64,000 nt of DNA from positions 434,001 through 498,000 of the forward strand of contig NZ_JALPRS010000002.1 of NCBI RefSeq assembly GCF_023630255.1, read 5' to 3'. Positions 35,143-39,186 of this stretch are shown in pieces; the stretch's first letter is position 1; the number at the start of each line of letters is the position of its first letter. Position numbers and translations under genes: made by a program. The notes under the pieces are model-generated. The model had not been told where the DNA came from. It did no database searches and saw only the letters and a program-made list of their open reading frames with translations. Source of the DNA: Pontibacter deserti (lineage in GTDB: Bacteria; Bacteroidota; Bacteroidia; Cytophagales; Hymenobacteraceae).

Positions 35143-35793
35143 CTATAGTTTGTTTGTAGAATTATCGATGCAATAAGTAAGTATGTGTTGCTGTAAAACC
35201 TCGTGCTGTACCTGATACAATTTAGAAAATTTATCTGTCTGCACACATCCCAAAAGCAAATTTTCTGTTTCAGGGCTAGGTTGCAGCAGCAGGTTTTCCT
35301 TAAATATCAGCTGCCGTTGGCTATACATTTTATACAATGTTTCTTTGGCGCTCCAGTACAAACAGGTTTTATCTGCTTCGCCGCAGGTATATTCTTTCTC
35401 GGCTTCGCTCAAAAACTTATCTGCCACACGCAGCGCCTTTTCACTTAGTAATTCAACATCTATGCCAACTTCAAATTTATCCGAAAGTATAACCGCCGCC
35501 AGCCCCGGCGAATGACTGATGGATACAAAGTATGGCGCCTGCTCAAATACCGGTTTACCATGCGCATTGCGCTGAAGTACAGGTGTATCTGACGTAAACT
35601 GCTGTAGTAAACTATAAACCAGTACTCTGCTGGCCAGCCACTCTTTTTGCCGGCGCGGATGTGCCTGTTCCAGCATCATATCCAAAGTAATTCCAGCGGG
35701 CAGGGCAAGCAAAAGCTCATCAGTGCGTTCTGTAATAGACCACGCACCAAGTATAGTATGCTCGTTAAGCTGCCGTGAATAGAGTAGGGGCAT
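35143..35793 (-). CDS. 4'-phosphopantetheinyl transferase superfamily protein
   Basis: 216 residues, Sfp-type length. Signatures: SISHSPGLAAV, GIDVELLSEKALRVADKF (Mg-binding Asp/Glu) and YWSAKETLYKMY (WxxKExxxK). It loads the CoA pantetheine arm onto carrier proteins such as ACP. Directly followed by the redoxin gene with a two-base gap. Confidence 0.93.
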   Translation of the reverse strand: MPLLYSRQLNEHTILGAWSITERTDELLLALPAGITLDMMLEQAHPRRQKEWLASRVLVYSLLQQFTSDTPVLQRNAHGKPVFEQAPYFVSISHSPGLAAVILSDKFEVGIDVELLSEKALRVADKFLSEAEKEYTCGEADKTCLYWSAKETLYKMYSQRQLIFKENLLLQPSPETENLLLGCVQTDKFSKLYQVQHEVLQQHILTYCIDNSTNKL

Positions 35794-35877
35794 AAATAAA
35801 GTATAGCCGGTGCTTTTTGTGGGGCTGCCGGGTAAATCGTAAATTTAGCTAAAATTTAATTTACGCTGATTTTACTA

Positions 35878-36807
35878 ATGGCAAGCAACGTACAAGTACA
35901 GAAAATAGCCACCCTTACCGGCCACCGCGATTGTGTTTATAGCTTGGAACAGTCTGCGGATGAGGCGCATTTTTACTCAGCTGCCGGTGATGGCTTGATT
36001 GTGCGCTGGAACCTGAACGACCCTGAAAATGGCGAACTGATTGCCCGTACCGAAAGCTCTGTTTACGCCATTAAATTCCTCCCGGACCGCGACCTGTTGC
36101 TAGTTGGGCAGAACAACGACGGCCTGCAGGTAATTGATGTTCAGGAAAAGAAAATAGTAAAGTCGGTGCCGTTGCCCAAGGTAGCCATTTTTGATATTGT
36201 GTACGCTCCTGATGTAAATAAAGTATTCATGGGGCTCGCCAACGGAAGTATAGCCGTACTTGCTGCTGATACCTTTGAACTGGAAACGATGATTCGGAAA
36301 TCAGAGAAAAGTGTACGTAGCCTGGCATACAACCATAAAACCAGAGAACTGGCAGCCGGCTACAGCGATCACACAGTCAGAATATTTGATGCCGTTTCGT
36401 TTGACCTGAAGTATGAGCTGCAGAACCACACCAATTCGGTGTTTACCCTGACTTACTCACCAAACGGCGAGTTGCTTTTAACAGGCGGCCGTGATGCCCA
36501 TTTACGGGTTTGGGAAGTACAAAACAAGTATAAAGAACGCGGCTATGTGATTGCGCACATGTATACTATAAACCACATCACCTACAGCCCCGATGGCCGC
36601 TATTTTGCTACCTGTAGCATGGATAAAAGTATAAAAGTATGGGACGCAGAAACCTTTAAGTTGTTGAAGGTGATAGACAAAGTACGCAATGCCAGCCACG
36701 GCACATCAGTTAATAAATTATTTTGGTCGGCTCATCAGAATCAGTTAGTTTCGTGTAGCGATGACCGTACCATTTCGGTTTGGGATATAAATTTTAATGC
36801 GTTATGA
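35878..36807 (+). CDS. WD40 repeat protein
   Basis: 309 residues, almost wholly WD40 repeats: for example TGHRDCVYSLEQS...GLIVRWNL, NHTNSVFTLTYSP then GGRDAHLRVWEV, INHITYSPDG then CSMDKSIKVWDA, and a last SCSDDRTISVWDI. Seven blades fit the length. No signal peptide, so cytoplasmic, presumably a scaffold. The stop overlaps the start of the DivIVA-domain gene by four bases (ATGA), showing translational coupling and suggesting a shared function. Confidence 0.93.
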   Translation: MASNVQVQKIATLTGHRDCVYSLEQSADEAHFYSAAGDGLIVRWNLNDPENGELIARTESSVYAIKFLPDRDLLLVGQNNDGLQVIDVQEKKIVKSVPLPKVAIFDIVYAPDVNKVFMGLANGSIAVLAADTFELETMIRKSEKSVRSLAYNHKTRELAAGYSDHTVRIFDAVSFDLKYELQNHTNSVFTLTYSPNGELLLTGGRDAHLRVWEVQNKYKERGYVIAHMYTINHITYSPDGRYFATCSMDKSIKVWDAETFKLLKVIDKVRNASHGTSVNKLFWSAHQNQLVSCSDDRTISVWDINFNAL

Positions 36808-37787
36808 AGATTACACCGTTAGACATCAGACAAAAAACGTTTGAGAAGGCATTCAGAGGATTAGACAAGGATGAAGTAAATGCTTTTTTGCTGACACTGT
36901 CGCAGCAGTGGGAAAAGTTATTGGATGAAAACAAAGACCTGCGTATGAAGCTGGATGCCGCTAACCGCGAAACCCAGAAACTGCGCGAAGTAGAATCATC
37001 GCTTTATAAAACGCTTAAAACAGCCGAAGATACTGGAAACAACATACTGGAGCAGGCTACCAAGTCGGCTGAACTACGTGCCCGCGAAGCCGAGCTGCAG
37101 GCCAATGAACTGCTGAACAAAGCCCGCAACCAGGCACGCCAGGTCCTGGAAGATGCAGCCCGCCAGACCGAGAGAATGGTAGCAGAAATGCAGGAAGAAG
37201 TTAAGTCTTTGGAGCAGGAATACCAGCGCATGGAAGGCTACCTGGATACCATGGTACGTGACCTGAAGAACCTGGCTAACGAAGCCCTTGAAAAAGTGGA
37301 GCGTACAAAAGCTAAACCTAAGAGTTCGGTAAACAGTATGCTTTCAAGAGCAGCCAATGTAACAATTGATAACACAGAGCTGCTGAAAACCTTGAAAGAC
37401 ATGGATACAACAGCAATAGAAATTATACCACAGCAGATACCGGCATCTACAGCAGCCAACGCACCTGTAGTTGTGCAGAACAATGGCAAAGAGTACAATC
37501 CGCTTGGCGACCCGGCACCAGATGTAACACAGCCACACCCGGAGATCCCAAACCCGGTAACACCTGTGCCTAATGTGCCATCACCTGAGATCGAGCCTAT
37601 AAAGCCGGATTACCCGGGCCGCGTGCCTGCACCGGATATTGAGCAACCAGTACCGGAAATTAAGCCTGTGCAGCCAGACAAACCAGAAATTCAGCCACCA
37701 CTAACAGAGCCGTCGCGCAATGCGTTTGCTGCAAACGGTGCTGCTGTTAAACAAGGCGGAGGTTCTTTCTTCGACGAAATAGCCTAA
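36804..37787 (+). CDS. DivIVA-domain coiled-coil protein with Pro-rich tail
   Basis: 327 residues. The N-terminal lipid-binding DivIVA signature is plain: MKITPLDIRQKTFEKAFRG then DKDEVNAFLLTL. A long coiled coil spans about 35-170 (Glu, Ala, Arg and Gln heptads), followed by a Thr/Val linker and a Pro-rich segment, about 240-310, with repeats like PEIEPIKPDYPG, PEIKPVQPDKPE. DivIVA relatives mark poles, septa or curved membrane and recruit partners. In this phylum the role is not established. Sandwiched and overlapping between the WD40 gene and folB (TAATG). Confidence 0.9.
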   Translation: MKITPLDIRQKTFEKAFRGLDKDEVNAFLLTLSQQWEKLLDENKDLRMKLDAANRETQKLREVESSLYKTLKTAEDTGNNILEQATKSAELRAREAELQANELLNKARNQARQVLEDAARQTERMVAEMQEEVKSLEQEYQRMEGYLDTMVRDLKNLANEALEKVERTKAKPKSSVNSMLSRAANVTIDNTELLKTLKDMDTTAIEIIPQQIPASTAANAPVVVQNNGKEYNPLGDPAPDVTQPHPEIPNPVTPVPNVPSPEIEPIKPDYPGRVPAPDIEQPVPEIKPVQPDKPEIQPPLTEPSRNAFAANGAAVKQGGGSFFDEIA

Positions 37788-38143
37788 TGGGGCAGATCGC
37801 ACTGGAAGGCATGGAGTTCTTTGCCTTCCATGGTTTTTACGACGAAGAGCAGAAGATCGGAAACAAGTATGGCATCGACCTGATCATAAACACCGACCTG
37901 CGTCGTGCCGCTGAATCTGATAACCTGGATGAAACCGTAAACTACGAAATGCTGTACGCGCTGGTGCTGGAAGAAATGAAAGTGCCGGCTCGCCTGCTGG
38001 AACACCTCGGCCACCGTATCATCGACAAAGTATACGAGCGGTTTCCGTTTGTGCAGTCGGTGAAGGTAAGCGTTTACAAGTATAACCCACCGCTCGGAGG
38101 CATCTGCAAATGGGCTAAGGTTACCTTAGAAGAAGCAAGGTAA
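37787..38143 (+). CDS. folB: Dihydroneopterin aldolase
   Basis: 118 residues, family length. FFAFHGFYDEEQKIGNKYGI, VNYEMLYALVLEEMK, LLEHLGHRIIDKVYE and YKYNPPLGGICKWAKV are the FolB core including the catalytic Lys/Tyr and Glu region. It converts dihydroneopterin to 6-hydroxymethyl-dihydropterin for folate. Its ATG overlaps the stop of the DivIVA gene by one base. Confidence 0.95.
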   Translation: MGQIALEGMEFFAFHGFYDEEQKIGNKYGIDLIINTDLRRAAESDNLDETVNYEMLYALVLEEMKVPARLLEHLGHRIIDKVYERFPFVQSVKVSVYKYNPPLGGICKWAKVTLEEAR

Positions 38144-38205: not shown

Positions 38206-39186
38206 TTACACCAACTTCAGCAACTCATGCGCAGCGGCAAAAGCAGACTTTTGTCCCAGCTTAACCTGTTCGGCTATAGTTGGTAACTGCTCTTTTACTT
38301 GCTGGTGTGCATAGAAATTATCTTCCAGCCCCTGTCGGATTGCTTCATACATCCATTGCAGGTTCTGGTCGCGGCGCTTCTTTTCAAAGTAACCGTTGTT
38401 TTGTGTCAGCTTTAGATAGTCTGCTATAGTTTGCCAGATGGTGTCGAGGCCGGTTTGTAGTAGCGCGGAGCAGGTGGATACTTTGGGCAACCAGCCGGAG
38501 GCGCTCATGGGGTAAAGGTGCAGGGCATTCTGGTATTCGGCGCGGGCAGCTTTGGCTTTGCCTGCATTAGTGCCGTCGGCTTTGGTAATGGCAATGCCAT
38601 CTGCCATCTCCATGATGCCACGTTTTATACCTTGCAGCTCATCACCCGCACCGGCCAGCATCAGCAGCAGGAAAAAATCAACCATGGCATGAACCGCCGT
38701 TTCAGACTGGCCAACCCCAACAGTCTCAACGATAATGGCATCAAAACCGGCGGCTTCACAAAGTATAATGGTTTCACGGGTACTTTTGGCAACACCACCA
38801 AGCGATTTCCCAGCCGGAGAAGGACGGATAAAAGCCTGCGGGTTTATAGACAGCGACTCCATACGGGTCTTGTCGCCGAGTATACTTCCGCCGGTGCGCT
38901 GGCTGGTAGGGTCTATAGCCAGTACAGCTAGCTTCTTCTGTTCGTGCTCTATCAGGTAGTTGCCAAATGCTTCTATAAAGGTGCTTTTACCTACACCCGG
39001 CACGCCGGTTATACCTATGCGCACAGCATTCCCAGCATAAGGCAATACTTTATCTATCACTTCCTGGGCCAGTTCCTGGTCCTGTGGTAATTTGCTTTCT
39101 AACAATGTAATGGCACGGCTCAGCAGTACCCGGTCTCCGCTTAAAATACCATTCACATAAGTGTCAGTAGAAAATCTTTTAGCCAT
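38206..39186 (-). CDS. meaB: MeaB-type methylmalonyl-CoA mutase chaperone GTPase
   Basis: 326 residues, G3E P-loop GTPase of the MeaB/ArgK group. Walker A is GITGVPGVGKST near residue 58; LAIDPTSQRTGGSILGDKTRM, IVETVGVGQSE and ITKADGTN follow. It protects methylmalonyl-CoA mutase from inactivation and gates adenosylcobalamin loading. The mutase genes are 7 kb away on the same strand, so it is not in their operon but serves them. Confidence 0.95.
   Translation of the reverse strand: MAKRFSTDTYVNGILSGDRVLLSRAITLLESKLPQDQELAQEVIDKVLPYAGNAVRIGITGVPGVGKSTFIEAFGNYLIEHEQKKLAVLAIDPTSQRTGGSILGDKTRMESLSINPQAFIRPSPAGKSLGGVAKSTRETIILCEAAGFDAIIVETVGVGQSETAVHAMVDFFLLLMLAGAGDELQGIKRGIMEMADGIAITKADGTNAGKAKAARAEYQNALHLYPMSASGWLPKVSTCSALLQTGLDTIWQTIADYLKLTQNNGYFEKKRRDQNLQWMYEAIRQGLEDNFYAHQQVKEQLPTIAEQVKLGQKSAFAAAHELLKLV

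Follow-up and report, generated by a model that had tools for sequence, protein, structure and literature searches.

A DivIVA-family protein with a conserved terminal motif in a WD40–DivIVA–folB gene block of Pontibacter deserti and its relatives

The gene order WD40–DivIVA–folB is deeply conserved in the order (Cytophagales) to which Pontibacter deserti belongs. We encountered it in a 64,000-nucleotide stretch of the P. deserti genome, the whole of which is referred to here as the window. The middle gene of the trio encodes a protein that joins the N-terminal domain of the DivIVA family to a short, conserved C-terminal motif, SFF[DE]-x-[ILFVM]. We regard it as moderately probable that this protein is a polar or septal scaffold of the DivIVA type with a terminal docking motif, inherited within an ancestral block of mixed functions in which the WD40 protein is a possible partner and folB a passenger.

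The gene trio and the DivIVA protein

The features of the window that bear on this reading are as follows.

35143–35793, minus strand: gene for an Sfp-type phosphopantetheinyl transferase (PPTase; PF17837/PF01648), divergent neighbour of the WD40 gene
35816–35847, plus strand: promoter-like site of the Bacteroidota type, 5' of the WD40 gene (pattern scan, one mismatch)
35878–36807, plus strand: WD40 gene (309 aa, predicted single seven-bladed propeller)
36804–36807, plus strand: ATGA overlap of the WD40 stop codon (TGA, 36805–36807) and the DivIVA start codon
36804–37787, plus strand: DivIVA-family gene (327 aa; matches PF05103 and 2wuj)
36852–36857, plus strand: codons for F17-R18, the membrane-tip residues of Bacillus subtilis DivIVA (by register with 2wuj)
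36867–37313, plus strand: long predicted helix, residues 22–170, probable coiled coil (AlphaFold2)
37314–37763, plus strand: proline-rich linker, residues 171–320, predicted to be mostly disordered (low pLDDT over most of it)
37764–37784, plus strand: C-terminal motif SFFDEIA (SFF[DE]-x-[ILFVM]), conserved in relatives
37785–37789, plus strand: TAATG overlap of the DivIVA stop codon and the folB start codon
37787–38143, plus strand: folB, dihydroneopterin aldolase (118 aa; PF02152, TIGR00525)

The initial annotation had named the three genes from the sequence alone, and Pfam (PF00400, PF05103 and PF02152) and NCBIfam (TIGR00525) agree with all three names. PF00400 matches the WD40 protein in four stretches (146.3 bits against a cut-off of 27), and AlphaFold2 predicts one seven-bladed propeller of 28 strands (mean pLDDT 94.4, pTM 0.92). 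The folB product matches PF02152 (E=2.8e-31) and scores above the cut-off of the FolB equivalog model TIGR00525 (100.5 bits against 72.15). Both junctions are likewise as first described: ATGA joins the WD40 and DivIVA genes, and at TAATG the DivIVA stop codon (TAA, 37785–37787) gives its final A to the folB ATG. Promoters of the Bacteroidota type follow the consensus TTTG-N20-TAnnTTTG, and a second one-mismatch match to this pattern lies within the WD40 gene (36722–36753). A gene for a MeaB-type GTPase (38206–39186, minus strand) is convergent with folB.

The DivIVA-family protein carries the N-terminal lipid-binding domain of its family, matching PF05103 over residues 3–114 (E=1.5e-26; 93.3 bits against a cut-off of 28). 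Residues 1–52 align without gaps to the N-terminal domain of B. subtilis DivIVA (2wuj; E=6e-08, or 1.6e-15 with a profile), with F17-R18-G19 in register, so that both membrane-tip residues are present in the window protein. Tips, tails and motifs were compared across 103 of 105 proteins from the order; the other two, L068 and L069, extend past the ends of their contigs. At position 17, 88 of the 103 relatives have F, 14 have L and one has M; R18 is kept in 63 and replaced in 40, by G in 33 of them; and G19 is invariant. Substitutions at R18 have been argued to suggest a loss of inherent curvature sensing (PMC7186360). If that argument holds, curvature sensing may differ in the part of the order in which R18 is replaced.

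The tip is followed by a helix, predicted by AlphaFold2 for one chain with pLDDT values of 81–97 (ten-residue blocks from residue 21), and then by the predicted disordered linker, which holds 28 prolines in its 150 residues. The proline-rich tail of the initial annotation is therefore present here, but it is a lineage-specific trait and not a conserved one: proline makes up 19% of the tail in the window protein against a median of 6.5% over 102 relatives. DivIVA frames of about 510–530 aa are found in two genomes of Emticicia and in one Cytophagaceae MAG, where the tails are far longer than those of the other relatives listed (L219:5098-6696, L231:5096-6628 and L258:5111-6691).

Conservation of the gene order

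The distribution of the trio was surveyed in 118 genomes of the order, which were searched for DivIVA (E<=0.001), WD40 (E<=1e-20) and folB (E<=0.001); matches no more than 1500 bp apart were counted as adjacent. Linkage counts took one match per gene per genome. For WD40 this removed a second match in G018 and in G099 and a second fragment in G081 and in G069; it also removed a second PPTase match in G073, and weak secondary pieces of DivIVA. Two genomes with weak partial DivIVA matches alone (G018 and G094) were scored as having no DivIVA. DivIVA was matched in 107 of the 118 genomes (above the Pfam cut-off in 105), the WD40 protein in 87 and folB in 107.

Of the 85 genomes that have both, 55 place the WD40 gene immediately 5' of the DivIVA gene and in the same orientation; 15 of the order's 22 families include the pair. 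In the 30 remaining genomes the two genes are split between contigs (25, some of them perhaps owing to assembly breaks) or lie apart on one contig (five). DivIVA immediately precedes folB in 80 of 102 genomes with both. Among the best 80 named loci from an alignment search with the WD40 protein, a set skewed to close relatives because it was ranked by similarity, the DivIVA gene comes next in 71 and folB follows it in 68 of these. These loci include Pontibacter, Adhaeribacter, Rufibacter, Hymenobacter, Spirosoma, Emticicia, Arcicella, Fulvivirga, Roseivirga and Marivirga; of the nine without DivIVA at that place, five are titled Runella. The pair thus stands up to the conservation check that had been proposed for it. 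No natural WD40–DivIVA fusion was seen: among the WD40 matches listed for the order, the surrounding reading frames do not exceed 379 aa, except for one of 1076 aa that belongs to a second, weak WD40 match.

Of the 105 genomes of the order that have DivIVA, 20 show no WD40 match (E<=1e-20), one of these having a WD40 gene cut by a contig end. Family f2 (the family numbers are labels from the tool) retains DivIVA with no WD40 match at this threshold, no folB neighbour and an altered tail end, for example VIFDLSDL (L044–L050). In five loci of family f23 (L141, L142, L144, L146 and L148), the WD40 gene stands after what we take to be a hisIE-like gene, and in four of these a presumed NlpC/P60-like gene is convergent on its other side.

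How much the adjacency says about a functional pair can be gauged from the gene on the other flank. The unrelated PPTase gene adjoins the WD40 gene in 51 of the 83 genomes that carry both, and in every case the two are on opposite strands. Since the WD40–DivIVA linkage (55 of 85) is no tighter than this, adjacency gives no special reason for pairing these two proteins. Among the 80 genomes that have all four genes, 39 keep the complete block, 13 are broken only between PPTase and WD40, 10 only between WD40 and DivIVA, and none only between DivIVA and folB; five retain only the DivIVA–folB link and 13 no link at all. In genomes without a WD40 match, the PPTase gene adjoins DivIVA in 12 of the 19 having both, as if WD40 had been lost from the block.

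Protein divergence gave a similar picture. Partial correlations of protein distances over 32 genera are 0.26 for WD40–DivIVA, 0.25 for WD40–folB and 0.31 for DivIVA–folB (permutation p 0.04–0.07), so that no extra co-divergence of WD40 with DivIVA over folB was found in this set. When the PPTase is added (22 genera), the strongest partial correlation is that of WD40 with PPTase (0.45). Co-divergence was accordingly discarded as a sign of a WD40–DivIVA partnership.

The overlaps are less widespread than the gene order. By crude ORF calls, an ATG at -4 or -1 occurs in three of the 35 same-strand neighbour pairs of the window. Packing of the trio is locally unusual, because two of these three are the WD40/DivIVA and DivIVA/folB junctions (against one of the 33 other pairs). 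Gaps in relatives were measured by taking the nearest ATG as the DivIVA start and placing the folB start by a motif rule, which settled it in 67 loci. The -4 overlap of WD40 and DivIVA is present in six of 56 adjacent loci of the order (the window's own included; the set also holds L112 of genome G033, whose WD40 gene is cut by a contig end and which is not among the 55 above). These overlaps are spread over four families, with three of nine loci in the window's own family. Across the 56 loci the gap is 0–30 bp in 12, 31–100 bp in 13 and more than 100 bp in 25. The DivIVA/folB junction is at -1 or -4 in 15 of the 67 loci. Overlap at both junctions is therefore a feature of the window that most relatives do not share. 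The initial annotation had called the trio a translationally coupled unit; coupling is possible in the window, judging from its junctions, yet it is no general trait of the block.

Beyond the order, 296 genomes of the class were examined with a WD40 threshold of E<=1e-45, and DivIVA matches were counted at E below 1e-25, weaker ones being excluded. The WD40 protein is a class-wide family, with one match each in 178 of these genomes. Outside the order, 24 genomes have DivIVA, and 20 of the 24 also have WD40; 145 of the 165 WD40-bearing genomes have no DivIVA at this threshold (counts read off tables), and the WD40 protein therefore leads a life independent of DivIVA. Only six of the 20 genomes with both have them adjacent: five in family f70 and one in f91, both outside the window's order and perhaps in different orders. 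In f70 the WD40 gene is 5' of DivIVA in five of six genomes, the gaps being -4, -4, 11, 38 and 131; the stretches retrieved for these loci hold no folB. The sixth genome (G623) has a DivIVA locus without WD40. The single f91 genome has WD40 5' of DivIVA with a gap of 228, followed by other downstream genes and no folB. In families f104, f109 and f126 (L294, L296–L298, L300, L301 and L308), DivIVA is followed by genes that we take to be dcd- and lpxD-like; f104 and f109 have a -4 overlap of DivIVA with the presumed dcd-like gene.

In a sample of 296 Bacteroidota genomes, PF05103 was found above its cut-off in 137, of which 125 belong to classes other than that of the window. Four control genomes were also matched in this search (Bacillus subtilis, Thermus, Deinobacterium and Lactococcus), and the looser threshold of the order search matched seven, including a Bacteroides. 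In 20 loci from other Bacteroidota classes (L329–L348), neither WD40 nor folB was seen near DivIVA in the fetched stretch. In the eight of these loci whose neighbours were inspected, what is presumably a yggS-like gene lies upstream of DivIVA in five and a presumed purine nucleoside phosphorylase-like gene downstream in four.

The terminal motif and the WD40 protein

The C-terminal motif of DivIVA is conserved well beyond the window. The strict form, SFF[DE]-x-[ILFVM], occurs in 82 of the 103 relatives. FF[DE] falls within the last 14 residues of 89 of them, against 0.35 expected from shuffled tails, and is absent from this stretch in 14; the position of the motif ranges from residue 201 to residue 366. 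By eye, FF[DE] was also recognised at the DivIVA end in 68 of the 71 named loci. Several DivIVA tails from members of the class outside the order contain an SFF[DE]-like motif and continue past it to an end that also looks conserved, and 13 of 20 tails from other classes end in I-[ILV]-x-x-L without SFF[DE] (again by eye).

Docking sites often take the form of a conserved motif at the end of a variable tether, and SFF[DE] may dock a partner in this way. A second protein with the motif, as might share such a partner, was looked for in the genome of the window. The degenerate pattern fits 24 places there (55 for the pattern reversed), and among the 24, DivIVA alone closes a long reading frame; this candidate was set aside.

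The motif and the WD40 gene were compared across the same 103 proteins. Both are present in 80 cases and neither in eight, with the motif only in nine and WD40 only in six (Fisher p=1.8e-4). The association is owed to one clade, because family f2 supplies seven of the eight proteins with neither, and the motif was for this reason down-weighted as a WD40 ligand. It is kept in nine of the 17 complete DivIVAs from genomes without WD40, and in these comparisons it appears separable from the WD40 pairing.

In the WD40 protein itself, no DivIVA-specific feature was found. A loop between the last blades, H-x-x-[SG]-[VI]-N, occurs in all 35 WD40 proteins compared; since it is common to genomes in which DivIVA was not found, it points to a DivIVA-independent function. 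A loop that looked specific to the order, KVID[KR]xRxxGHGTS[VI]N, is present in 54 of 54 WD40 proteins from the loci of the order and in none of 11 outgroup proteins. It was considered as a DivIVA-binding site and rejected: its AGHGTSVN part is found in G475 and G500 (f78) and nearly the entire loop in G018, three genomes that gave no DivIVA at the thresholds used, and the DivIVA-linked WD40 proteins of f70 and f91 hold it only in part.

Interpretation and comparison with known systems

Under the favoured reading, the block of a divergent PPTase gene and the series WD40, DivIVA and folB would have been inherited from the ancestor of the order. The DivIVA protein would dimerise and assemble through its long coiled coil, as other DivIVAs do, and the F17-R18 tip of its N-terminal domain would contact concave membrane at poles and septum. 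The last residues of the flexible tail, SFF[DE]-x-[ILFVM], may then catch a partner that belongs to the machinery of division or of the wall. The WD40 protein would be a cytosolic propeller, widespread in the class, that has its own function and may dock on DivIVA in the paired lineages, although the evidence does not require this; folB would be a metabolic passenger, at most co-expressed. A passenger block explains the pairing in f70 and f91 less well, because WD40 precedes DivIVA there without folB.

That pairing is the best argument for a genuine WD40–DivIVA pair, and hence for the proposal that the two form one polar or septal scaffold, in which the membrane is marked by DivIVA and clients are recruited by the propeller, docked on the DivIVA coil or tail; the pairing and overlap of the genes would then reflect a fixed stoichiometry. 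The spread of the pair over 15 families and, with other downstream genes, into f70 and f91 is in keeping with this proposal, as are the -4 overlaps, seen at two f70 loci and in four of the order's own families, and the presence of WD40 in 20 of the 24 DivIVA genomes outside the order against 178 of 296 overall (kinship ignored). We nevertheless hold it to be rather unlikely. The linkage of WD40 to DivIVA is no stronger than its linkage to the PPTase, and the two proteins show no extra co-divergence. Each is also found without the other, DivIVA in 20 of the order's 105 DivIVA-bearing genomes (one with a cut WD40 gene) and WD40 in 145 of 165 WD40-bearing genomes outside it, where only six of 20 genomes with both have them adjacent; the order-specific WD40 loop also occurs without DivIVA. 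The DivIVA sequence fits the polar or septal role given to it by the initial annotation, and the proposed single scaffold of both proteins is no more than possible. A more specific form of partnership, binding of the terminal motif to the propeller, seems very unlikely: the association of motif and WD40 that would recommend it comes from f2, both partners occur singly, and similar tails are seen where DivIVA is not beside WD40 (f109, f121, f123 and f126).

A simpler account holds that the trio is joined by a shared transcript alone and that its overlaps are neutral compaction. This is a serious contender, to which we would give somewhat less than an even chance. It is favoured by the few and scattered overlaps, by the fact that a metabolic gene, folB, is the most stable neighbour of DivIVA, and by the presence elsewhere of dcd-lpxD-like or yggS and purine nucleoside phosphorylase-like genes beside DivIVA. 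It sits less easily with two successive overlaps in a window where only one of the 33 other same-strand pairs is so tight, and with the occurrence of the WD40–DivIVA pair outside the order. At the other extreme, Bacteroidota might possess a DivIVA polarity system of their own, present in almost all members of the window's order and widespread in other classes of the phylum. The Bacteroidia branch would have added to it the SFF[DE] motif for docking and, in two orders or more, a dedicated WD40 propeller as an adaptor from the same operon; we think this unlikely. Better supported is the view that these bacteria have a DivIVA of the usual membrane-marking kind, which ends in a docking motif particular to the lineage and was inherited as part of a mixed block.

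With PF05103 present above its cut-off in 105 of the 118 order genomes and in 137 of the 296 from across the phylum, DivIVA may mark the poles or septum in a large group of Gram-negative bacteria. A 2020 paper describes Gram-negative DivIVA homologs as typically confined to other groups. Neither a study of Bacteroidota DivIVA or of the WD40–DivIVA pair, nor published work on the WD40 protein in Bacteroidetes, was found in the literature searched, whose coverage leaves out most subscription journals. The terminal motif offers a short handle for finding what DivIVA recruits at the pole or septum.

Compared with known systems, the folB product is an ordinary dihydroneopterin aldolase apart from its location. 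The best fold match of the WD40 protein is WDR61 (3ow8), and RACK1 and G-beta are also among the matches listed; the 50 listed matches have TM-scores by query of 0.78–0.89 at 16–25% identity. It differs from these eukaryotic seven-bladed propellers in being a bacterial single-domain protein. The DivIVA-family protein has its N-terminal domain in common with GpsB and Wag31, but falls far short of the models for both (NF010725, 30.1 against 91 bits; NF050102, 41 against 260 bits). B. subtilis DivIVA is a protein of about 164 aa. With this protein (2wuj, 2wuk) the window protein shares the gapless N-terminal domain, the register of F17-R18-G19 and a long helix after it, and it differs in its greater length (327 aa), its predicted disordered tail and its terminal SFF[DE] motif. 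The gene context also differs: the window gene lies with WD40 and folB, while the B. subtilis gene lies with a yggS-type gene, a neighbour that is also described for Bdellovibrio and several Firmicutes (PMC7186360). The DivIVA of Bdellovibrio bacteriovorus, likewise from a Gram-negative bacterium, is reported to control progeny morphology and possibly to interact with ParA (PMC7186360). It has R18 substituted and is encoded with yggS and proC homologs, whereas the window protein keeps F17-R18 and is encoded with WD40 and folB.
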